A DNA stretch of 64,000 nt, taken from contig JAHHGS010000139.1 in the NCBI GenBank assembly GCA_019359715.1, forward strand, positions 62,001 through 126,000. The letters are read 5' to 3'. Under the pieces are notes generated by a model, which worked only from the letters and a program-made list of their open reading frames with translations, ran no database searches and had not been told where the DNA came from. This document shows positions 47,874-61,976 of the stretch, piece after piece (positions within the stretch are counted from its first letter, which is position 1; each line of letters starts with the position of its first letter). The position numbers were made by a program, and so were the translations under genes. This DNA comes from Aphanocapsa sp. GSE-SYN-MK-11-07L (lineage in GTDB: Bacteria; Cyanobacteriota; Cyanobacteriia; Thermosynechococcales; Thermosynechococcaceae).

Positions 47874-49466
47874 ATGCAACCTTCCCTAACCCAGCTTTCT
47901 CCAGTTAGTCGTTACTATGTACGGAAACTCCTGCAGCAGAATCTGGGGGTGATCCAATCTAGTCAAGGTGTGGTTGATGCGGGGGTGCCTGGGTCTTTAG
48001 ATGTAGAGCAAGCGCTTGATCGCTTGCTTGGCGATGGCATAGACACCTCTGCCAAAGTAGCCGAGCTGGAGCGCCTAGCCTATTTGCATCAGGGCTTGAG
48101 CACTCAGGGCAATCTTTATAGCGATGATGTGGCGGAGCTAGAGTCGAAAGTATTTTCGCTGTTAGGTATCAAAAAGCAAGCGCCCGTTGTCCCCAAGACT
48201 GAGGTTGAGCAAAAACCACTGATTAAGGTGGAGGCTGGGGTTGAGCCTGAACCAGTGGCGATCGCGGAAACCCCTGACCCGCTGCTAACCGAACCGCTGC
48301 TGGAAGTTGAGGTGGCTCCTCCCCCCCCGCCGGTTGTAATTACGCTCGAATCGAGGCTAGCGGTTCTCAACCAGTTGAGCCAATTTGGGCAAAAGTACCT
48401 GGGGGGGTTGCTTGTAGTCAATTACTTGCAGTCTGCTCGCCCGTCTAGGCCTTGGATGAGCCAGTTTCAAATTTCCCGGTCTGGGCAGATTACCCATGCA
48501 GGCGAGCAGGTGTTTGGGGTAGAGCAACAGCAAGATGTTCAAGAGTGGATGACTCGCTTTATCAAAGACTGCAATGGCGTAATTCGCAACTTTGCCCAGA
48601 TGGTGAAGCAAGCCGATATTCAAATTGACCTGCCAACTCCGACCGTTCCGCCGCCAGTTCAACCCGCCAAAACAGACATCGACGCCGAAGATTTGCGCCG
48701 GGCGATCGCCCAAGCAGAACTGCGAGTTTACTATCAGCCGATTGTGCTGCTAGAGAGCTTACAAATTGCTGGTTTTGAGGCGCTTGTTCGCTGGCAACAT
48801 CCCCAGCGGGGTTTGCTGCCGCCCAGCCAATTTATTCCCCTGGCGGAGTCGAGCGGCTTAGTGATTGATTTGGATTGGTGGGTGCTTAAAAAAGCATGTA
48901 CACAAGTTAGTCAGTGGCAGACTCAATACTCTTTTCTGGCTAATCTTAGTATCAGTGCTAATCTGTCTTGCCAGCAGTTTGTGCAGCCAGATTTGATTCA
49001 ACAGGTCGAGGCAGTTTTGCGTGAAACCCAGATTAATCCCCACTCTTTAAAACTAGAGATTACCGAGGGGGCAATCGCTGCCGATGCGGGTGCAGTCAAT
49101 CAGACCCTAGATCAACTCAGAGCGATGGAACTGCAATTGAGCATGGATGACTTTGGCACCGGCTATTCGTCTCTCGGTCGGCTCCAAGATTTTCCGGTAG
49201 ACGTTCTAAAGATCGATCGCTCGTTTATTCAGCGTTTGGGGATTAACCAGGGCAGTACAGAAATTGTCCGCACGATTATCACGCTGGCCCACAGTTTTGG
49301 CATGCAGGTGGTAGCCGAGGGAGTAGAAACCTCTCAGCAGCTAGAGGTTCTGCGATCGCTAGATTGTGAGTATGTTCAGGGCTATTTCTGCTATCAACCC
49401 TTGCCAACCGATCAGCTCGAAAATCTGTTTAAGACCCATCCCAGCATTTTCATCTCGCAGACCTAA
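47874..49466 (+). CDS. EAL-domain cyclic-di-GMP phosphodiesterase-like protein
   Basis: A 530-residue protein. The C-terminal EAL domain (about 275-520) has VYYQPIVLLESLQIAGFEAL, with the Glu of the EAL motif, then SKLEITEG-like KLEITEG, DDFGTGYSSLGRLQDFPVDV and KIDRSFIQ, and AEGVETSQQLEVL. All metal-binding acidic residues that I can check are there, so activity against cyclic di-GMP is likely. No GGDEF domain is fused. The N-terminal 150 residues are helical and Pro-rich in the middle, and the part at about 155-255 is an unrecognised domain that may sense a signal. It has no membrane segment. It ends four bases into the convergent CheW gene. Confidence 0.88.
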   Translation: MQPSLTQLSPVSRYYVRKLLQQNLGVIQSSQGVVDAGVPGSLDVEQALDRLLGDGIDTSAKVAELERLAYLHQGLSTQGNLYSDDVAELESKVFSLLGIKKQAPVVPKTEVEQKPLIKVEAGVEPEPVAIAETPDPLLTEPLLEVEVAPPPPPVVITLESRLAVLNQLSQFGQKYLGGLLVVNYLQSARPSRPWMSQFQISRSGQITHAGEQVFGVEQQQDVQEWMTRFIKDCNGVIRNFAQMVKQADIQIDLPTPTVPPPVQPAKTDIDAEDLRRAIAQAELRVYYQPIVLLESLQIAGFEALVRWQHPQRGLLPPSQFIPLAESSGLVIDLDWWVLKKACTQVSQWQTQYSFLANLSISANLSCQQFVQPDLIQQVEAVLRETQINPHSLKLEITEGAIAADAGAVNQTLDQLRAMELQLSMDDFGTGYSSLGRLQDFPVDVLKIDRSFIQRLGINQGSTEIVRTIITLAHSFGMQVVAEGVETSQQLEVLRSLDCEYVQGYFCYQPLPTDQLENLFKTHPSIFISQT

Positions 49467-49951
49467 CGCGAAGCCAAACGAGGTAACAAATCAATCATCT
49501 GAGTCGGATCAAGTAGAAAAATAGTCTGACTGCCGTCTTCCGTTTCAGCAACCGTTACGTGGCTGGCAATGCTGAGCGTATCGACCTGACGATAGCTGGC
49601 TGGCAAAACTCGCACATTTGTGGTGGGGACTTCCACCAAAGCTGGCGATTTTTCGACCGGAATTCCCAGCAGTTCGCCGCTGGTCAGACCCAAAACAACT
49701 AGATAACTGGCTTCAGGGATCGGCCGACCGAAGACTGACCGATGTAAATCAACAATCGTAACTTCTTGATCGTCAAGGTGAGCAACCCCAGCCAAAGTCT
49801 GCCCACTGCTGTGAATGGTGGTTTGGCTGATAATTTTTTTGACTGAGTTAATCTCCACTCCCAGATATAAAAGTTTAGTGCTGCTCTGACCCAAGCTAAA
49901 AACGATCAGCTTGAGGGTCTGGACTGATGAGGACTGGTTTAAGGTAGCCAT
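49463..49951 (-). CDS. CheW-like protein at the end of the chemotaxis cluster
   Basis: A 162-residue single CheW domain: LIVFSLGQSSTKLLYLGVEI, SVKKIISQTTIHSSGQTLAG, HLDDQEVTIVDLHRSVFG and a final strand pair. CheW proteins couple receptors to the CheA kinase. It lies 75 bases after the CheA gene on the same strand and is the second CheW-type gene of the cluster. Its stop overlaps the end of the EAL gene by four bases. Confidence 0.85.
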   Translation of the reverse strand: MATLNQSSSVQTLKLIVFSLGQSSTKLLYLGVEINSVKKIISQTTIHSSGQTLAGVAHLDDQEVTIVDLHRSVFGRPIPEASYLVVLGLTSGELLGIPVEKSPALVEVPTTNVRVLPASYRQVDTLSIASHVTVAETEDGSQTIFLLDPTQMIDLLPRLASR

Positions 49952-50026: not shown

Positions 50027-53000
50027 TTAACGGGCGATTGCGGTGTCTTGCAGCAGCCCCTGCAGGCTGAGCAAGAATTGCTGTTCGATATAAGGCTTGG
50101 TGAAATAGTCAGTCGCCCCAAGCTGGAGCGCCAAGCGTTTATGCTTTTCACCACCGCGAGAAGTCAGCATCACAACCGGGACTGACATCAAGTCTGGGTC
50201 TTGGCGGCGGTGGGTCAAAAACTCAAAGCCATTCATGACCGGCATTTCGACATCACAAATCACTAATTTGACCGGGTGCTGCTGCAACTGCTCCAGCGCT
50301 TCCCGCCCATCGCGAGCTTGCAGGACGCGATAGCCAGCTCTTTCGAGAGTCATGGAGAGGGTTTGGCGCATGCCAGCAGAGTCATCGACAATCAACAGGC
50401 TTGGCAGCGTATGTAGGCGCTTCGGCACCTGGGTTGGCTGGTTCACCTGGGGCGGCTGTCCTTGCAGGCCGGCGATCAAGGAGAGAGTGTCAATTACCGG
50501 CACCAGGGTGCCATCCCCCATAATCGTGCAGCCATAGAGGTAGCTGGGAGCTTTTAAAGCTGAACTGAGCGGTTTGATCACCAACTCTTGCTCAACCAGC
50601 AGTTTTTCGACTTCCAGCGCAAAGGGTTGCCCGCCCTGCCGCAGCACGAGTAAAGGCGATGCCCATTCAGCCGGGGTTGGCACAGACCCCAACGACAGGT
50701 TGGGCGCAGTTTCTGGCAGAGGGCAGTTGTAGGGTAAGAGATTCTGGAGGCTGTAAATCGGGATCAGGCGATCGCCCCACTGTAAAAAGCGCTGCCCGCT
50801 GGAGCGCTTGATCTGCTGAGGCTGTGGGTTGACGAGATCTTCAATGCTATCGGAAGGCAGGGCGACACTGCTCACCCCCGACCAAACCACCAGCAGCTTC
50901 GAGATGCCCAAGGTAAGCGGAATCCGCAGGGTGAAGGTGGTGCCTTTGCCAGGATGAGAGGTGAGGCTGACAGTGCCCTTGAGCGATTGCAGTTGGGCCC
51001 GGACAATATCAAGCCCGACGCCACGACCAGACAGTTCACTCACCTGATCAGCAGTCGAAAAGCCCGGTTCAAACATGAAATCGAGCAGGCGATCGCTAGA
51101 CACTTGACCCGCTTCTTGCGCCGGCAGATAGCCCATTTCAACTGCTTTGGTGCGAATCTTCTCTAGATCAATTCCGCCTCCATCGTCTGTTACCTCAATC
51201 ATGGTGCGGCTGCCCTGGTAGTAGGCATGAATTTTAATTTGCCCCCGCTCTGGCTTGCCCTGCTGCTGCCGCAGTTGGGCAGATTCAACCCCGTGGTCAA
51301 AGGCATTGCGGAGCAGGTGCAGAAGCGGGTCATAAAGCTTCTCCAGTAAGGCTTTATCGACCAAAACCCCAGTCCCAGAGAGCTGCAAGTCCACAGGCTT
51401 TTTATATTGCAGCGACATCTCCCGCAGCAAGCGTGGAAAGCGATTGAGAATATTTTCTAGCGGTAGCATCCGGGCCCACATCAGCTCGTTGCGCAGCCCG
51501 GTCAAAAGCTGCTGCTGCTTGACCAAGCCTCGGTCAGACTGCTCAGCAAACAGGGTGACATCGCCCACTTTTTCTTCCAGCAGCAAAATCGACTCGACGG
51601 CAGACTGCAAAAGGTTATAGATTTCACCGTAGCGATCTAGCTCTAGGGAATCAAAGTCGCTGCGGTAGGCCGCTCCGGGCGCGGTGATCGCCATTGAGGT
51701 TGACTGTAACCGAGCGCCCGTATAGCGATCGGGGCTAATCAACATTTTGTTGAGTTGAGTGCGCAGTTGCCCACCAATCCCCAAAAACTGCTCAAATCTC
51801 TGCCGAAGGTTTTGCAGTGAAGCCTGAAGCTGTTCATTTTGCAGCGATAAACTGTTGCGGTTAATCGCCAGTTCTCCAATCTGGTTATTCATCCGCTCCA
51901 ACTGAGCCATCTCTAGGCGCACGGTTAGTTGTTCGGCGGGTTTCCTGTCGGTTGGCTGAGGCGCTTGCGCGGTCAAGATCGGGGCAGGCGGCTGGGCTGC
52001 GATCGGGGGTAAACTCTCCTCAAAGCTGGGCAGTTGGTCAAAATCCTGCTCGATCGCAGACAAGGCCGTGGCCAAATCCGCTGGAATCGCCGGGCTGTCA
52101 GCTTCTTGATTCGCTTGATCAGCAAGAGTTGTTAGCTCTCCGATTTGATTAAAAATGTCTTCAATGCTGGGAGGCTCTGTGCTAGGTTCGCTCAAGGCAG
52201 GCTCGACCAGCGTTGGGTCTGTTTGATCAGCTTGATCAGCCCATTCTTCCCAGAGGCTAGCTACCGCAAGTTCTGGCGATGATGAAGCTTCGGCTGGAAT
52301 TTCGCTCCAGAGGGAGCTAAGCGGTTCTGCTTCCCTCGGTTGGGTTATATTGCTAAACATCCCATCGATGTCTTCCAGGTCTGGATCAGAGAAGCTGGAG
52401 TGGAAGTTTTCAAGCTTAAAGTCGCATTCGAGATTAATTGAGTAAGATTCAGCCTCTGCCAGCTGGCGCAATGCGGCAGCTGGCGTTCCTCCCTGTTTGC
52501 GATCGCCGTCGATCACCGCTTGATAGCTGGCTTGAAAGTCTGCTAGCGCCACCTGCATAATCACGGGTGCTTGCTGGGGCGATCGCTCTAAAGCGGTCAA
52601 GGTGAGTTGAGCAATTTCCCCCAGTCCAGGCAAGTCGAGGAGTTCTGCCAAGCCTTGAAAGACTTCCGCTTGGGAGCGCAATTCTACGGTTAGGGTTGGC
52701 TGATCGGGCTGCACCGCTGCCATCCGGTTTAAGGCTGCGGCGACATCGGTGGTAAAAATTTGCAGGGCAATATCAATTCCCATTTCGGCCACGGTCGGCA
52801 GGCGATCTTCGGTCGCTAAGTAGTCGCCCAGATGATGCTCAATCTGGGCAAACACTGGCTCGGCTGCCATCAGAGCTGCTTCACCATCAAAGGTGCTCCC
52901 GACCCGAATTGCTTCCAGCAGCGGCAGCCGCAGGCAGTCATAGGCTTGCAGCAAAAGCTGTTCTAGCTGATCGTCGATCGCTAATTCTTCGTTGTAGAGC

Positions 53001-53230
53001 GATCGAAAGCAGTCTTCTAGGCGGTGGGCCAGAATTTTAATTTCCGCTAAGCCCACATTGGCAGACCCGCCCTTAATCGAGTGAGCCGCCCGCATCAGCG
53101 TATGCACCTTGGCGGTGCTGCGGTCTTGACGCAGCCCCAGCAGTTCGGCTTCAATCATCTGCAAAAATTCAGGTGCCTCTTGAACAAAGAAACGGTAAGC
53201 CTGGTCGCGAATATCGGGATGGATAGCCAT
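50027..53230 (-). CDS. CheA-type hybrid histidine kinase (HPt-kinase-CheW-REC), PixL/PilL-like
   Basis: A 1067-residue kinase. An N-terminal phosphotransfer domain (about 1-110) has RAAHSIKGGSANVG with His50 as the phosphorylation site. A long acidic Pro-rich linker (about 280-440) follows. The dimerisation region starts ERMNNQIGELAINRN. The ATPase (about 610-790) has LLRNAFDHGVESA, DDGGGIDLEKI and GRGVGLDIV. A CheW-like domain (about 790-930) and a receiver (about 940-1060), with LLIVDDSAGMRQTL, LVICDVEMPVMNGFE and YFTKPY, finish the protein. It is the central kinase of a type IV pilus/phototaxis-type pathway. It begins 4 bases after the MCP gene's stop. Confidence 0.93.
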   Translation of the reverse strand: MAIHPDIRDQAYRFFVQEAPEFLQMIEAELLGLRQDRSTAKVHTLMRAAHSIKGGSANVGLAEIKILAHRLEDCFRSLYNEELAIDDQLEQLLLQAYDCLRLPLLEAIRVGSTFDGEAALMAAEPVFAQIEHHLGDYLATEDRLPTVAEMGIDIALQIFTTDVAAALNRMAAVQPDQPTLTVELRSQAEVFQGLAELLDLPGLGEIAQLTLTALERSPQQAPVIMQVALADFQASYQAVIDGDRKQGGTPAAALRQLAEAESYSINLECDFKLENFHSSFSDPDLEDIDGMFSNITQPREAEPLSSLWSEIPAEASSSPELAVASLWEEWADQADQTDPTLVEPALSEPSTEPPSIEDIFNQIGELTTLADQANQEADSPAIPADLATALSAIEQDFDQLPSFEESLPPIAAQPPAPILTAQAPQPTDRKPAEQLTVRLEMAQLERMNNQIGELAINRNSLSLQNEQLQASLQNLRQRFEQFLGIGGQLRTQLNKMLISPDRYTGARLQSTSMAITAPGAAYRSDFDSLELDRYGEIYNLLQSAVESILLLEEKVGDVTLFAEQSDRGLVKQQQLLTGLRNELMWARMLPLENILNRFPRLLREMSLQYKKPVDLQLSGTGVLVDKALLEKLYDPLLHLLRNAFDHGVESAQLRQQQGKPERGQIKIHAYYQGSRTMIEVTDDGGGIDLEKIRTKAVEMGYLPAQEAGQVSSDRLLDFMFEPGFSTADQVSELSGRGVGLDIVRAQLQSLKGTVSLTSHPGKGTTFTLRIPLTLGISKLLVVWSGVSSVALPSDSIEDLVNPQPQQIKRSSGQRFLQWGDRLIPIYSLQNLLPYNCPLPETAPNLSLGSVPTPAEWASPLLVLRQGGQPFALEVEKLLVEQELVIKPLSSALKAPSYLYGCTIMGDGTLVPVIDTLSLIAGLQGQPPQVNQPTQVPKRLHTLPSLLIVDDSAGMRQTLSMTLERAGYRVLQARDGREALEQLQQHPVKLVICDVEMPVMNGFEFLTHRRQDPDLMSVPVVMLTSRGGEKHKRLALQLGATDYFTKPYIEQQFLLSLQGLLQDTAIAR

Positions 53231-53234
53231 AGCA

Positions 53235-55640
53235 CTAACTCAGCTTAAATTGACTGACGGTGGTCTGTAATTCTTGGGCAACTTTTAGCAGGTCTTGGAA
53301 GGAGTCCAGCACCTGATTTGCTCGATCAGACGTGGTGTTGCTAATCGCTGCTACATCGGTAATCGTGGCCGATACTGCGGTGGAAGCTTGGGCTTGGGCA
53401 ACGGCAGCTTGGGCGATCGCTTGCACCAAGGCGGTAATTTGGTCACTGGCTTGGGCAATTTGGGTCAAGCTCCGGCGGGTTTCTTCCACCAGTTGCGTCC
53501 CCGTGACTACCTGCTGGGTTCCGGCTGCCATTGCGGTCACCACTTCGTTGGTTTCGAGCTGAATACTGGTCACTAGCTGTTCAATTTCTTCGGTTGCTTT
53601 GGCGGATTGTTGAGCCAGCGATCGCACTTCGTCGGCTAACACGACAAACCCGCGTCCTTCGTCACCGGCTCTGGCTGCTTCAATCGAGGCTTTCAGCGCC
53701 AGCAAGTTAGTTTGGGCCGCAAAATTACCAATTAGCTTCACCACTTTCGAAATTTTCTGGGAAGATTCCCCTAGCTGCTGCACTTTCTTGCCGGTGTCAG
53801 CCACGGTTTCGCGGATGGCGAGAATCCCTTCCACCGTCCGGTTCATAGCTAAATCCCCTTGATTGAGAGTTTGACCCGCCACCTGGACGGCTTGTTCAGC
53901 CGCCTGAGCACTTTGGGCAACCGTTTGAATCGACTCAGTCATCTCTTCAATTTGCTTCAGCACAGTCTTGATCGACTGAGACTGTTGGAGCGCGTCTTGA
54001 GAGAGTTCTTGCACTGCATCTTCATTACTGTCGGTAGTTTGGGCTACCTGCCCGGCTGCTCGCTGCACTTGAGTTACCAGCTTCCGCAAGCTCTCAATCG
54101 TGGCGTTATAGGAGTCGGCGATCGTGCCAATTTCGTCTTCTGTCACGTTAGCTCGCACCGTCAGGTCGCCCCGCTGTAGAGGCGCAACCTCGGTCAGCAG
54201 CTCTAATGCTCTGTTTTGCAGAAACTCTTTGGCTGCTTGCTGCTTGCTGGCACTGATGGTTTGGGCTCGAACCAGTTCAGCTTGAGTTGCTAACTGCTCC
54301 TCACTCGCCCTCATTTGGCCTTTCAGCAAGGTTTGAATTTGGGCAGCCATTCGGTTAATATTCTGACCCAAAACTGCCAGTTCATCCTCGCTGTCTGAAA
54401 CTTCAACGCGGGTATCCAGATTCCCCATCCCCAAGGCTTCAACTGCTTTCGCCGCTTTAACGATCGGTTGAGTTGCTTGGTTTGCCAGGTAAGCGGCTAG
54501 GGCACCGACTAACAGTGCAGTGATTAAAGTTCCTAAACTAACAGCTATGAGTAGATCGTGTTGGGGCTTGAGGGCAATATCACCATCTAGCGTCGTGATT
54601 CCCACCCAGTTTAGGTCGGGCATGCCTGGAACTTTATCCTGGATCTTGTAAGCCACCAACCGCAGGTTATTTTGACCGTCAAGATTAAACTGGCTATCAG
54701 CTTTTTTGCCGACTATGCGCTTCGAGAACCCTGGAAATTCTGAATCAACTGACTTACCAAACAGCGACATATCCTGTTTTGAGACAAACACAAAGTTGCC
54801 ATTGGAGTCAATTGCATGAATTTGATCGCCAAAGGTTGCAAGGTCTTCAACAGACGTATAGAGGGAGGTGAGGGGGACTTGAGAGCGAACAACACCCATT
54901 GTTTGCCCAGTCACAGTACTCTTAATCGGCACAGCAATCACCGCCACGATCGCACCTGTCCCTGCCAGCATTTCTGGATTGACAATCACCGGACTGCCAG
55001 TTTTTACAACTTGCTTAAAGTAAGCCTTGGTTTCAATATTTCCGACCGGAGCACCAGGGGTCTGAGCGATTCTTGTCCCATTCAGATCAAACACAGCAAT
55101 GTTGCTGAACGTTTTGCCATAGATCTGCAAGGTATCGTTTAAAATCTGCTCTTTCTGCTCAGGAGTCGCTAATCCTGCTAGTTTGGGGTTTGCAAAGACG
55201 GCTGTTGCTGCCAGAGACTGAGTATCTCTGAGTCGTTCTCGCATGAACATTGCTAGTCTTCTGGCCAGAGCATTCACGCGCGCCTGTTTGCCATCTTGAA
55301 TTTGTTGAGATACGGCCTGACCGGCAAAGGTATAGGCGGCAGCACCTGTTACCAGCACCGGCAGCACGCCAACTAGCATTGCCGCCGCAGTTACTTTTGT
55401 TCTCAGACTCAAACGCTTCCACAGCCCCCTGCCTTTGGTTTGGCCATTGCGGGGCCAGGCAATTTGCGCTCTCGGTTCAGAAGCGGGTGCCTCTAACAGC
55501 AGCGTTTTCTGATCGGTTGGATCTGACTCTGGCATCAGCAGGGTAGGTAGTTCAGAAATGGGCAGTTTAGAAATAGGCAGATCTGACTCTGGCTGCTTTC
55601 CGTTTAAGGAGGGATGGGTTGGGCTGTCGGGGAAACTCAT
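53235..55640 (-). CDS. Methyl-accepting chemotaxis protein (downstream copy)
   Basis: A protein of 801 residues. The cytoplasmic N-terminal 80 residues contain [15 protein letters not shown] and a basic stretch. A membrane segment (about 85-110), an extracytoplasmic Cache-type sensor (about 115-365), a second membrane segment (about 370-395), two HAMP-like units ([20 protein letters not shown] in the second) and the signalling coiled coil follow. The tip has [17 protein letters not shown], with Lys where Asn is usual. The longer frame starts at 55658; ATG at 55640 is chosen because [14 protein letters not shown] lines up with the start of the neighbouring MCP and AAGGA stands 9 bases ahead. 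It is closely similar to that MCP over the C-terminal 330 residues. No GAF/phytochrome domain, so not a light sensor of the PixJ kind. Confidence 0.92.
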
Positions 55641-55717
55641 GATTGGCATCCTTGGCATGACGAGTAGAGGGACGATCCGAGTGAACCAGATTGCTGACCA
55701 GAGCAGGAGCTAGCAGA

Positions 55718-58246
55718 CTAGCTCAGCTTGAATTGGCTCACCGTGGCTTGCAGGTCTTGCGCCACCTTGAGCAGGTCTTGGAAGGAGCCGAGCACCTGAG
55801 TCGCACGAGTGGAGGTATTGTCGGCAATGCCAGCCACATCGGTAATTGTTTCTGAAACTAGACTAGAAGCCTGAGTTTGACTGACGGCGGCTTGGGCGAT
55901 CGCCTGCACCAGGGCGGTAATTTGGTCACTGGCTTGAGCAACTTTAGCCAAGCTTTGGCGGGTTTCTTCCACCAGTTGCGTCCCGGCCACCACCTGCTGG
56001 GTTCCCGCTTCCATCGCCGTCACCACTTCGTTGGTTTCGGTTTGAATGTTGGCCACCAACTGTTCAATTTCAGCCGTCGCTTTGGCAGACTGGCGCGCCA
56101 GCGATCGCACTTCATCGGCAACCACGGCAAACCCGCGTCCTTCTTCGCCTGCATGAGCCGCTTCAATTGAGGCGTTGAGCGCTAGTAGGTTAGTCTGGGA
56201 GGCAAAACCACCAATCAGGCTCACCACTTTCGAAATTTTCTGGGAAGATTCGCCCAACTGTTTTACTTTCTTAGCTGTGTCAGCTACGGTTTCACGGATG
56301 GTCAGAATCCCCTCTACAGTTCGGTTCATGGCGATGTCACCCTCGCTGACGGTTTGGCTGGCCAATTGGACGGCTTGCTCAGCCGATTGAGCGCTCTGGG
56401 CGACAGTTTGAATCGATTTGGTCATTTGCGCAATTTGCTTCAGTGCCGCTTGCATTGCCTGCGACTGCTGCACAGCATCTGCTGTTAGCGCCTGCACAGA
56501 AACTTCATTGCTATCAGCGGTCTGTGAGACTTCTCCCGCCGCCAGTTGCACTTGCCTTACAAGCTTCCGCAAGCTTTCAATCGTGGCGTTGTAGGAGTCG
56601 GCGATCGTGCCAATTTCGTCTTCCGTCACGTTAGCTCGAATCGTCAAGTCACCTCGACGCAGCGGCCCAACTTCGATCAGCAGTTCTAGAGCGCGGTTTT
56701 GCAGGAACTCTTTGGCTTCCAGTTCCTTTCTGGCGTTTGCCATCTGCTGCTCGGTAATGGCGGATTGAGCAGCCAACTGCTCTTTCGCTGCTTGTTCTTG
56801 ACTTTGCAGTAGGGTTTTGACTCGTTCCACCAGGTTGTTAAAACTGAGTGCCAAGGTTTGACTTTCGGCGGCTCCCTTTACCTCAGCTTGAACATCTAGA
56901 TTGCCTTCAGCCACCTGTTCAGCCGCGACGGCTAGGGTGTTCAGGGGTTGAGATACTCGTCGGGCTAATAATATAATTGCCGTCGCAGCCACGGCTGCCA
57001 AAATCGGAGTCAGAATAATGAAAACAAGCGAGAGGTTACGACCCGCTTCACCCAAGTCAGCTTCTTCGATTGACAGCACAGCGACCCAGTTTGTCCCTGG
57101 GATCCGGCTCAGTTCAAATTCCTTGCCAGCATGAACAAAAATTGGTGCTGTCAAAACTTCTGAAACGTCAGGATTGGCGGCAAAACTCTCCCTAAACTTG
57201 TTGATTTCTTTCAGCACCGTATCCCCTCCGATTAGCTCAGTGCTGTCTTGGGGGCCATCTTGGTTCAGGGTTCTAAAGACTGCGTTCTCACTGCTGAGCA
57301 GTTGCATGGTCTTGTCACCGCTCCCCCCTAGAGTTTGGTTCAACTGTTGCAGGCGATTAACTAAAGCATCATCTAAGCTGGAAGAGTTGTACACACCCTT
57401 GATTACGCCGACAACCTGATCAGTTTTAGGATCTCTGATCGCCAAGTTTAATTCAATTCCAGCCGCAACCCTAGCCGAGGCATCTGGCTCCGGGTCACGC
57501 ACATAAACCCCGTTTTCCTTCGCAATCTGCCACCACTTCTCATCTCCTTGATAAAAGTCACTGGTTGGATTGCTGTAGGCAACGTTGAACCCTTGTTTGC
57601 TGGTAAAGAAAACTTCGGCTAGACCCGCTTTATCTGCAACTCTGACCAGATAGTCATTCAAGATTGGGTTGGATTGGAGCAATTTTGTACCAGCGTAGCG
57701 CTTCTCCAGCTCAGCCGTCGGTTGCCCAGCCAATGACCCGGCCTGACTCGAACCTGCTTGAGCTGCTTCAATCACCAATGGGTTAGTGGCCACGATCGAG
57801 ATAACTTCCAGGTTGCGAAGAACCGCCTTGCCAACATAGTCAGCATTATTGATCGTACGAGCCCGAACCGCTTCTAGTCCTCTTTGATAGGAATTTTGAT
57901 AGGTGATACTGCTGGCAACGAAACCAGTCGCAACCAGGGGAATGAGGGTTACGGGTAAAAGCGTTGTTAAGAGTTGATTTCTGAGGCTCATGCCCTTGGC
58001 GCGAGGCTGCTCTGTTGGCCCAGCTAGCGGACTTTTGCCTGCGGTTTCGGGTTGGCCCAGATCATCCCCAATCTGCTCTTTAGCGAATAAATTTGCATTT
58101 GGTAACTCCGACTGAGCCTCTTGCTCAGCCGCATCTGGCATCAACAAAGTCGGGAGTTCAGAAACAGGAATCTCAATCTCTTCCAGCTTTCGATTCTGAT
58201 GGTTCCCGTTCTGATAGTTCTGAGTTGGGCGGTCAGATAAACTCAT
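55718..58246 (-). CDS. Methyl-accepting chemotaxis protein (upstream copy)
   Basis: An 842-residue receptor with the same plan as its neighbour. The cytoplasmic N-terminus has the motif [12 protein letters not shown] membrane segment lies at about 90-115, a long double-Cache sensor at 120-405 ([26 protein letters not shown]), a second membrane segment at 410-435, HAMP units, then the signalling domain with [20 protein letters not shown] and [20 protein letters not shown]. The sensor differs strongly from that of the downstream MCP, while the last 330 residues are nearly the same, pointing to duplication followed by divergence of the sensor. The likely role is control of type IV pilus-driven movement toward or away from a chemical signal. 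Confidence 0.92.
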
Positions 58247-58385: not shown

Positions 58386-58958
58386 TCAATTGCTAGACAG
58401 CATGCGGTCAAAAATCGCGGCAGCATCGATCGCTAGCAGCATTTCACCCTTGCGGCTGAGCGTAAACCCCCGCAAAAACGGCGACACACTAGACGTGGCA
58501 GCAACCGTGGGGGCAGACTCAATATCGCTGGGATTGCACCAATGCATATCATCAACATTCATGACCGCTAGACCCAGATAGGCAGCAGCTTTTCGATCAG
58601 GCTGGCTGACCAATACTTTGTAGCTAGCCGCATTCCCCATTTGCTGGTGTAAAGGCTCTAGCCCCAAAAGCTGAGCTAGGTCAAGCACCCAGAGAATCTT
58701 GCCTCGCCAGTTATAGGCTCCCAAAACGTAGGCGGCCATGTCAGGAATTGGCACAACTTGTCCAATCGAGAGGGTGAGTACCTCCGTGAGCTGATCAACC
58801 GACAGCATGGCTAGGGTGTCTGAGCCAAGCGGAAAGCTCAGAAATTGCATCTCACCTGGCTGCGGTTTACTCACCTGATCAGGCAGATCAAATGGATCAA
58901 ACAAACTAAACTGATCACTGGCTTGGGATCCAACTGAACCCAATACTTGCTCCACCAT
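58386..58958 (-). CDS. CheW-like adaptor, PixI/PilI-like
   Basis: A 190-residue protein with one CheW domain (about 35-185): FLSFPLGSDTLAMLSVDQLT, AYVLGAYNWRGKILWVLDLA and a closing EMLLAIDAAAIFDRM. A 35-residue extension precedes it. Position between the CheY genes and the MCPs matches pixI/pilI of other cyanobacteria. It is 139 bases downstream of nothing but the small CheY genes; the gap to the next MCP gene (58247-58385) shows no feature. Confidence 0.88.
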   Translation of the reverse strand: MVEQVLGSVGSQASDQFSLFDPFDLPDQVSKPQPGEMQFLSFPLGSDTLAMLSVDQLTEVLTLSIGQVVPIPDMAAYVLGAYNWRGKILWVLDLAQLLGLEPLHQQMGNAASYKVLVSQPDRKAAAYLGLAVMNVDDMHWCNPSDIESAPTVAATSSVSPFLRGFTLSRKGEMLLAIDAAAIFDRMLSSN

Positions 58959-59052: not shown

Positions 59053-59412
59053 CTAAACAAGCTTACGAACCGCATTTACCAACTCAACGGGATCAACAGG
59101 CTTAGCAATGTAAGCATCAGCACCTTGCTGCATTCCCCAATATTTATCCATATTGTTGCCTTTAGTTGAGCAAAGCAGGATCGGAATATTTTTAGTGCTG
59201 GCATCATCTTTCAAATCGCGGCAAATTTCAAACCCGCTGCGATCGGGCAACACAACATCTAGCACAATTAAATCTGGCTTCTGGCTAGCAATTCGAGCTT
59301 TGGCTTCTTGCTCACTAGAGGCGGTAACAACTGTAAAACCAGCCTGCTGCAAAGAGCCAGAGGCAATTTGCAAATCGGTCATTAAATCGTCAACAACTAG
59401 AACTGTATTCAT
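59053..59412 (-). CDS. CheY-like response regulator, PixH/PilH-like (second copy)
   Basis: A 119-residue single receiver domain. VLVVDD supplies the acidic pair (Asp8, Asp9), LIVLDVVLPDRSGFEICRDL the phospho-acceptor Asp52, and AYIAKPVDP the Lys at 104. It differs from the neighbouring CheY gene at scattered positions only, so the two arose by tandem duplication. In such clusters this protein receives phosphate from the CheA-type kinase and tunes pilus motor output. Confidence 0.92.
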   Translation of the reverse strand: MNTVLVVDDLMTDLQIASGSLQQAGFTVVTASSEQEAKARIASQKPDLIVLDVVLPDRSGFEICRDLKDDASTKNIPILLCSTKGNNMDKYWGMQQGADAYIAKPVDPVELVNAVRKLV

Positions 59413-59523: not shown

Positions 59524-59883
59524 TTAAATCAGTTTGCGAACGGTTTGAATTAGCTGATCAGTATCAATTGGCTTAGCAAGGTAAGCATCAGCACCTTGCT
59601 GCATTCCCCAATATTTATCCATTTTTGAACCTTTGCTGGAGCAAATAATAACAGGAATACTTTTAGTGGCATCATTATCTTTCCAATCACGGCAAATTTC
59701 AAACCCGCTGCGATCGGGGAGGACAACATCTAAAACAATCAAATCTGGCTTTTTGGCAGCCAGACTAATTTTGGCTTCCTGATCATTGGCGGCGGTGACA
59801 ACGGTATACCCAGCTTGCTTTAAGGCACTAGTAGCAATCTGCTGATCAGTCTTTGAATCATCGACAACGAGGATGGTGTTCAT
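59524..59883 (-). CDS. CheY-like response regulator, PixH/PilH-like (first copy)
   Basis: A 119-residue single receiver domain with VLVVDDSKTDQQIA, phospho-acceptor Asp52 in LIVLDVVLPDRSGFEICRDW, and Lys104 in AYLAKPIDT. It has the same length as the neighbouring copy and shares the unusual block MDKYWGMQQGADAY. All catalytic residues are kept in both, so both can probably be phosphorylated. It lies 49 bases after the PatA-like gene. Confidence 0.92.
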   Translation of the reverse strand: MNTILVVDDSKTDQQIATSALKQAGYTVVTAANDQEAKISLAAKKPDLIVLDVVLPDRSGFEICRDWKDNDATKSIPVIICSSKGSKMDKYWGMQQGADAYLAKPIDTDQLIQTVRKLI

Positions 59884-59932: not shown

Positions 59933-61096
59933 TTAAACTTGCTGCCCAGACTGGACGGTTAGATATTTGTCTAAAACTGCCAGAAGCTGAACATGTTCTA
60001 CCGATTTACTCAAGAAGTCGGTGGCACCAACCATTTTGGCCCGGACGCGATCGACAATCCCATCATTACCTGTCAAAATCACGATCGGAGTATCGGTAAA
60101 GGCAGACAAGCGGCGAAGTTGACTGCAAATCTCATATCCATTCGTGTTTGGCATCCGTAAATCCAACAAAATTAAGGCGGGTTTCTGGCTGAGTAAGGTT
60201 GGAATAGCCCGCAGCGGGTCTTGGATACCCAAAAAGCGATAACCAGCCCCTGCCACAACCGTCTCTAGGGTTTGGCACATCCAAGCACTGTCATCAACAC
60301 AGGCGATTAAGGGCTGCTCTCCAGCAATCTCTGGCTGAGGGGCGATCGGCATCGTCGGAGCAGGTAAATCGGCCACCTCCCGGAGTTCAATTAGCTCTGC
60401 TTGAATAAACAGTACAAGTGAACTTACAACATCCACAATTGGCCGTTTCATCAAAACTGATAAATCCCAAAAGGTATTTTGACCATTCAGGAGCTTTGAT
60501 AGCGTTTGGTAGACGCTCTCAGACGTGACTTCTTTTAACTGTGCTGGTTGCCGAACGACGGGAGCGCAGTCGAACGGATAGTCTGTAACTTTTGCTGCCT
60601 GCATTCGCTCCAAGGTTGGTTCTTGCTGCTCAACAAACCGAACTGGGTCTAGCAGCATCAATTGCTTTTGGACACTAAACCCAGAAACAGTCTTGCAATC
60701 CAATCTCCAAACCTGAGCAAGATCGGAAAAAAGTTCCGTCAGAATGCTGTGTACGATGCGGGCTGCTTGCTCACAAGTCAGGTGATCTTGAGCCACAAGA
60801 CTGCAAAGATGATCATATTCCCACAACTCAGCAGCGCTAGGTCGGTGGGCTTTTAGCCAGTCTTTGAGCGTGCGGGGAGTCAAGTTTGGGCAACCTGCCA
60901 GCACCTGCCGGCACCAGCGCCTGACCGGGTGTCTACCGCCTGTGCCGTATAGCAAGCGCCCCATAAAGATGTAGAGTGTCCAGCTACAACTGGAACTGCC
61001 GGAAATAATCAGCTTTCCAGTATAGTGCTGCTGCTTAAGGTCTGACAGCCGCTCAAGCACCGTAGAAATTCCTGGAGATAATTGACGATTAATCAT
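59933..61096 (-). CDS. PatA-like response regulator (PixG/PilG type)
   Basis: A protein of 387 residues. An N-terminal DUF4388/PATAN domain (about 1-240) with SDLKQQHYTGKLIISGSSSC and LYIFMGRLLYGTGGRHPVRR is followed by a linker. The C-terminal receiver (about 265-380) has IACVDDSAWMCQTLE, LILLDLRMPNTNGYE and FLSKSVEHV (Lys kept, Pro replaced by Ser). It is the first gene of the cluster, as pixG or pilG is elsewhere. The frame extends to 61186, but AGGAGAG stands 8 bases before the ATG at 61096 and the conserved domain starts right after it. It is thought to link the kinase to the pilus base. Confidence 0.88.
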   Translation of the reverse strand: MINRQLSPGISTVLERLSDLKQQHYTGKLIISGSSSCSWTLYIFMGRLLYGTGGRHPVRRWCRQVLAGCPNLTPRTLKDWLKAHRPSAAELWEYDHLCSLVAQDHLTCEQAARIVHSILTELFSDLAQVWRLDCKTVSGFSVQKQLMLLDPVRFVEQQEPTLERMQAAKVTDYPFDCAPVVRQPAQLKEVTSESVYQTLSKLLNGQNTFWDLSVLMKRPIVDVVSSLVLFIQAELIELREVADLPAPTMPIAPQPEIAGEQPLIACVDDSAWMCQTLETVVAGAGYRFLGIQDPLRAIPTLLSQKPALILLDLRMPNTNGYEICSQLRRLSAFTDTPIVILTGNDGIVDRVRAKMVGATDFLSKSVEHVQLLAVLDKYLTVQSGQQV

Positions 61097-61976
61097 CTGT
61101 GCTTCTCTCCTGGCTGATTGATAACGGAGCGAATCAGGGTCGGTATAGCCGTACTCTACAGACAAAGCCATAATACATTGCCTCAAATTGAGGTGCTGGG
61201 TAAGTGCGAAAAATCGTTAGCAATCTGTCCGATTCAGAACTGAGTCGAGTTTCGCAAAAGCTTGGAAATCTGACTTGCCCCTCCAATCATGATAGAGAGG
61301 CTTGAGTAGATTGTCCCTCAGGGAAAACACGTAAAAATCTTACTTTTCCTACATTTTTCCCCACTTCAAGCCCACAAAGCCTCTTGACGAAAATTGCTGT
61401 GCTGCGCTAAGCGATCAATGGAGTTGGTATCATAGACAGTTGATTAAATTCTTTGTTTTGATGCCAATTATTTTTTTAAATTCGCTGAAGTGCGATCGCA
61501 AGCAATTGTTGAAGTTGTTCTAGCTGGGCGTTTAAGGTACAACCTAGAACAATCAACTCTAGAACTGAGTTCTAGGCTTTCTAGCTCAATTCTCAACATT
61601 AAATATAGTGTTAAGAACCTTGAGCGATCGCTAACATCAAACCCCTCAAAAAACACGTGAAAGACCAGAACGGTCGTGAAAAGAATATTTGGGACTTAAT
61701 TTTTTGGTAATTAATACTAAACTTTATTTGATAGCTGAAAAATCATCAAAGCTTCAGAAATTGCGAACGGGGGATTCCTGATGAATTAATTCCCCCCCCC
61801 GATTTATTTGAATTACTATCACAATCCGATCAGATAATCTGACAGCCGAAACAGATGTCTTTCCACACTCCTTACCGTTTCTGCCCTTGGCTCAACTAAT
61901 CCTGACGGTACAAAATGCTGGTCGTCGTCTATGATTCAAGTAGGCAACATCAATCTTTATGGAGTCTTGTTTAATC
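61097..61976. other. Long non-coding region before the chemotaxis operon
   Basis: About 880 bases without a credible gene. A frame of 62 codons at 61468-61656 (minus) has no sensible sequence. The region holds a cluster of CTAGAA/TTCTAG half-sites (listed separately), a run of nine C's at 61792-61800 and an A+T-rich segment at 61680-61740. It must contain the promoters of the chemotaxis operon and of the IscA-like gene. Confidence 0.45.
61515..61585. promoter_or_regulatory. Cluster of CTAGAA/TTCTAG half-sites
   Basis: TTGTTCTAG (about 61515-61523) and CTAGAACAA (about 61544-61552) form an inverted pair. The palindrome CTAGAAC-TGA-GTTCTAG follows at 61559-61575, and a further TCTAG at about 61580. 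Five related half-sites in 70 bases suggest a regulator-binding region for the chemotaxis operon, whose first gene begins about 420 bases to the left. The protein that would bind is not known. Confidence 0.4.

Follow-up and report, generated by a model that had tools for sequence, protein, structure and literature searches.

A Selected Nine-Residue Peptide in the Tails of Two Tandem Chemoreceptors and Its Possible Relation to a Threonine-Centred Peptide of Cyanobacterial PilJ-Type Linkers

Two tandem chemoreceptor (MCP) genes in the window, which is the whole 64,000-nucleotide stretch of DNA analysed here, encode receptors that both carry the peptide SELPTLLMP in the N-terminal tail. Comparison of the two genes indicates that their duplication is old and that strong purifying selection has acted on the motif ever since. 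In our preferred reading, SELPTLLMP would be a docking motif in both tails and a variant of a peptide in the linkers of PilJ-type receptors, through which the pair would reach the same partner as PilJ; we give this reading a chance a little short of even.

Chemosensory Cluster and Its Receptors

The source genome is cyanobacterial and approximately 5.1 Mb in size. The two MCPs belong to a pilus-type chemosensory cluster, which contains a PatA-like regulator, two CheY-like proteins, a CheW, the two MCPs in succession, a CheA with a receiver, and another CheW. The features are listed below.

59933..61186, minus strand: PatA/PixG-like response regulator, receiver at the C-terminus
59524..59883, minus strand: single-domain receiver (CheY-like)
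59053..59412, minus strand: single-domain receiver (CheY-like)
58386..58958, minus strand: CheW-like protein
55718..58246, minus strand: upstream MCP, 842 aa, with tail, membrane sensor part, HAMP and MCP signalling domain (ORF and Pfam)
58136..58162, minus strand: SELPTLLMP in the tail of the upstream MCP, codons 29-37
53235..55658, minus strand: downstream MCP, 807 aa as listed, with tail, dCache, HAMP and MCP signalling domain (ORF and Pfam)
55530..55556, minus strand: SELPTLLMP in the tail of the downstream MCP, after LPISKLPI
50027..53230, minus strand: CheA with Hpt, HATPase, CheW and C-terminal receiver domains
49463..49951, minus strand: CheW-like protein

Both receptors are ordinary in themselves. 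The MCPsignal domain (PF00015) scored 140.5 and 145.4 bits, respectively (cut-off 34.6), a HAMP domain precedes the signalling domain in both, and no GAF photoreceptor domain was detected in either by Pfam. The C-terminus of both MCPs is VSQFKLS, which is not NWETF-like, and a CheR/CheB-tethering pentapeptide of that kind is absent from the C-termini of both; CheR itself had one match in the genome, within a 1423-aa frame. The N-terminus of the PatA-like regulator gave a weak DUF4388/PATAN match (E 0.037, below the cut-off), and the gene order of the cluster is of the Pix/Tax type. For the downstream MCP, the ATG within the ORF at 55640 (MSF...) is probably the true start, not the listed one at 55658, because AAGG precedes the internal ATG at good spacing and this start aligns with that of the upstream MCP; the listed ATG has no such AAGG-type site. 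The two CheY-like genes are very similar in sequence and look like tandem duplicates. Four bases (49463-49466) are common to the 3' ends of the CheW gene and of an EAL-domain gene on the plus strand (47874-49466) that converges on it.

Selection on SELPTLLMP in the Two Tails

As the earlier note had described, SELPTLLMP precedes the first hydrophobic helix in both MCPs and is followed by an acidic residue (D in the upstream and E in the downstream MCP), and an ISKLP-type sequence, LPISKLP, stands before it in the downstream MCP. The tails had also been called otherwise dissimilar, which proved too strong: a gap-free alignment spans 51 residues, 20 of them identical, and places the motif at an equal offset in both, 28 residues past the aligned Met. 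The pair came out as sister genes (support 100/89) in a phylogeny of 98 MCP signalling domains. Since the motif stands at the same offset in the alignable tails of sister genes, the alignment indicates that it predates the duplication that gave rise to the pair.

The ELPTLLMP codon pattern occurs at just these two sites in the 5.1 Mb genome. The motif, at nine residues, is also the longest identical run between the tails (permutation p 0.0017), and when one tail was shuffled 20,000 times the longest common word never exceeded seven. By the NG86 method, the nine codons of the motif had 5.0 synonymous and 0 non-synonymous differences (pS 0.67, pN 0.00), whereas pS and pN were 0.60 and 0.47, respectively, in the remaining 42 tail codons and 0.62 and 0.17, respectively, in the signalling domain. 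The Fisher test on non-synonymous sites of the motif versus the rest of the tail gave p 2e-5 for a stretch that was picked after being seen, and this still holds after correction for the 43 possible nine-codon stretches in the 51-residue alignment. It is this combination, synonymous divergence equal to that elsewhere with no amino-acid change, that points to an old duplication followed by selection on the motif. The same divergence at synonymous sites ruled out a recent conversion or copying event from one MCP gene to the other, and the motif is likewise no remnant of a recent duplication.

A neutral leftover of the tandem duplication is a disfavoured explanation that we consider very improbable. 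The tails are homologous, the genes are sisters and the orthologues lack the motif, all of which would suit it, but it does not account for 0 non-synonymous against 5 synonymous changes in nine codons whose synonymous divergence equals that of the rest of the genes. We rather believe that SELPTLLMP would be a short linear docking motif in a cytoplasmic, probably disordered N-terminal tail, and that selection would have kept it in both receptors while the remaining tail drifted. A single-sequence structure model of the upstream MCP had a mean pLDDT of 42, too poor to support binding. In the downstream MCP only, a degenerate second copy, DQKTLLLEA, follows the motif at 55495-55530.

Distribution in Other Receptors and Genomes

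The exact motif pattern was found in one of 388 cyanobacterial genomes, the source genome itself, and in none of the 387 others, none of which belongs to the same genus; the search of 58 genomes of relatives likewise held no same-genus genome. For comparison of tails, 198 MCP ORFs were filtered by length, TM position and non-PilJ status to 81 tails. The loci compared, here and for the PilJ linkers, had been selected for their similarity to the MCP of the window or to PilJ instead of being sampled randomly. SELPTLLMP occurred in none of the 79 other non-PilJ receptor tails. In the signalling-domain tree the pair adjoins one gene of another family (G155/L191; support 100/100), which is the closest orthologue, with a signalling region 71% identical. 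The tail of L191 has no trace of the motif, and anything similar is absent from it and from the other 78 non-PilJ tails. Conservation of SELPTLLMP among Pix-type orthologues, including those of other genera, was thus rejected on the basis of the 387 genomes and 79 tails.

The earlier note had proposed that a docking site for the PatA-like protein, a CheW or the pilus base lies in these variable tails. A short functional peptide is supported by the purifying selection and by a comparable peptide in PilJ, but the partners it named gained no specific support. Contact with CheW is normally made at the signalling tip of a receptor, and the motif is absent from the related Pix-type receptor tails examined. 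These cluster proteins are, on the other hand, encoded next door, and PATAN regulators contact the motor according to an excerpt of PMC7690835. A dock for one of the three is very improbable.

Other short conserved sequences were seen in receptor tails. Another MCP clade of the same family (L077, L080, L082, L084, L085 and L087) has variable tails that share a short conserved LPxSVLN, and the MCP tails of genus g11 (L054, L056 and L059) have PLDxExx(S/T)xGLN in common near the start.

Threonine-Centred Peptide in PilJ-Type Linkers

The source genome has its own PilJ-type receptor, which consists of TPR, a long acidic linker and TM helices, and the linker contains two copies of a peptide, EATLLM and DLTLFM. 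After six linkers under 100 aa were dropped from 104 PilJ ORFs, the core T[LMF][LFI]M was present in 73 of the 98 linkers, the boundaries of which were drawn by rule of thumb, against a shuffled mean of 0.7. The named and unnamed PilJ locus sets overlap, and removal of near-copies left a non-redundant count of 82, with the core in 64 (shuffled mean 0.57, maximum 4). The consensus of 78 instances was [ED][DE][EDQA]-T-L-[FL]-M-[GA], with D or E at position -2 in 75. S[LMF][LFI]M was found in none of the 98 linkers, though Ser is 2.4 times commoner than Thr there. Several of the 25 linkers without the core keep variants such as DETLLI, DETLLV or TILM. The linker sequences indicate that PilJ/HmpD-type receptors across cyanobacteria carry [ED][DE]xT(L/M)(F/L)M in the acidic cytoplasmic linker. 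A second acidic Thr motif, [DE][DE]xT[FL][VA] (mostly TFVS or TFVA), was present in 22 of the 98 linkers, for example L116, L160 and L069, versus 1.8 after shuffling.

The DNA pattern for [DE]xT[LF][LF]M had nine sites in the source genome, and only the two PilJ sites lay in long convincing genes; generic occurrence was rejected for this genome, the other seven sites being in short or unlikely frames (longest 125 aa). The pattern for [DE][DE]xT[LF]FM had 69 sites in 145 genomes, compared with 22 for a reversed control pattern. Among the 47 of these 69 sites that were examined, 25 were PilJ; the other 22 lay in folded enzymes, membrane proteins and short frames with one exception, so other families as carriers were rejected. 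This exception, L270 (G046:C1:1903000-1909000, minus strand), appears from its sequence to be NACHT-like with pentapeptide repeats, and it ends ADTTLIV...SEDATLFMADP, with the PilJ-type peptide at the extreme C-terminus.

The literature text search for DETLFM, EDTLFM, ELPTLLM and DETLLM gave no match, and no description of a PilJ linker peptide was found in the literature searched. We consider this peptide little noticed and an interesting by-product of the analysis.

Relation of SELPTLLMP to the PilJ Peptide

SELPTLLMP contains the T-hydrophobic-hydrophobic-M core of the PilJ peptide and has E at -3 and the T-L-L-M core in common with it, but L and P at -2 and -1, respectively, replace the acidic residues of PilJ (log-odds -3.5 each). 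With a matrix built from the PilJ motifs without the source genome, SELPTLLMP scored 11.0 bits, while the best of the 79 other receptor tails scored 3.1; this resemblance was tested only after it had been noticed. Shuffled versions of the two tails reached 11.0 with p 0.0019 and 0.0024, and 8 of 564,613 windows in non-PilJ frames reached it, of which two were this motif, one was a split PilJ and five were unrelated. From these scores, SELPTLLMP may belong to the same class as the PilJ peptide, which we judged somewhat less than evenly probable. Because L191 and the other 78 tails contain nothing similar, a link to PilJ would need convergence or transfer.

It is also possible, though we would not expect it on balance, that SELPTLLMP is peculiar to the tandem pair of this lineage and has a partner of its own, and that its likeness to PilJ is due to chance. 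Its absence from 79 other tails and 387 other genomes fits this explanation, as does the difference at -2, the most conserved flank of the PilJ peptide; the rarity of the T-L-L-M core, with five unrelated windows of 564,613 scoring as high, argues against it. We tentatively prefer SELPTLLMP as a variant of the PilJ docking peptide, with E at -3 followed by T-L-L-M. The Pix-type pair of this lineage would then have taken up or kept the peptide, and its receptors would reach the cytoplasmic partner of PilJ. More weakly, the invariant Thr might be a phospho-acceptor read or written by the partner, or the partner might be the polar pilus activator HmpF.

Possible Partners and Meaning

FHA domains read phosphothreonine. 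A Hanks-type Ser/Thr kinase could phosphorylate the Thr in both SELPTLLMP and the PilJ peptide, and an FHA domain could then recognise it, which would tie the receptor arrays to motility kinases. This switch would account for the strictness of the Thr, which is never replaced by Ser in the PilJ cores, and the source genome gave 19 matches to Pkinase, 18 of them above the cut-off, and 20 to FHA. SpkA and SpkB are required for the motility of Synechocystis, as stated in excerpts of PMC10651672 and PMC11863333, which would agree with this proposal. The peptide SELPTLLM (E at -3, P at -1 and M at +3) fits the site logo of Mycobacterium tuberculosis (Mtb) PknA, given in part of PMC7164672 as acidic at -3, Pro at -1 and hydrophobic at +3, but that logo comes from a distant phylum and the likeness is one of sequence alone. 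Moreover, the ORFs of the receptor loci scanned had no STK signature and four loose FHA-pattern matches, which means that no genomic link to a kinase was seen at these loci. We regard the phospho-switch as rather unlikely.

Equally doubtful in our view is a dock that works without phosphorylation and binds HmpF or another polar scaffold or activator of the motor. In Synechocystis, HmpF co-purified with two MCPs (McpA and PilJ) and with PilB, according to an extract of PMC7002697, and the Hmp system regulates the association of HmpF with the motors according to PMC9239167. HmpF as partner would explain a motif common to several receptors, but would leave the strict Thr unexplained.

In a broader form, we speculated that the type IV pilus receptors of cyanobacteria share a Thr-centred site in their cytoplasmic tails, [ED]xxT(L/M)(F/L)M, that serves as a docking site or phospho-switch for a partner outside the CheA pathway (a Ser/Thr kinase with an FHA protein, or HmpF), and that the Pix-type pair acquired the same site; this proposal is unlikely as a whole. 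If it is true, two chemosensory systems would be wired to one partner in this lineage. The selected nine-residue peptide, and above all its widespread PilJ counterpart, offers a defined handle (one Thr to mutate, one bait peptide) that makes the link of cyanobacterial chemoreceptors to the pilus motors, and to the Ser/Thr kinases required for motility, directly testable in laboratory strains.

Comparison with Known Systems

Short docking peptides of chemoreceptors are known. For example, the NWETF pentapeptide of enterobacterial MCPs lies at the C-terminus and binds CheR and CheB. SELPTLLMP resembles it as a short conserved peptide, putatively for docking, in a flexible receptor tail, but is N-terminal and unrelated in sequence. 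The PixJ/Tax1 phototaxis receptors likewise belong to a type IV pilus cluster with a PatA-like regulator, CheY-like proteins, CheW, MCP and CheA; unlike them, the window pair has no GAF domain by Pfam, and dCache is present in the downstream MCP instead. The linker of the cyanobacterial PilJ/HmpD-type MCP is alike in its Thr-Leu-Leu/Phe-Met core, in the acidic residue at -3 and in its position on the cytoplasmic side, ahead of the first TM helix, and it occurs in the same genome. In contrast to this MCP, which is composed of TPR, acidic linker, TM, HAMP and signalling domain, the two receptors in the window lack TPR, their tail is short and L-P stands at -2/-1, and the PilJ core is missing from their Pix-type relatives.
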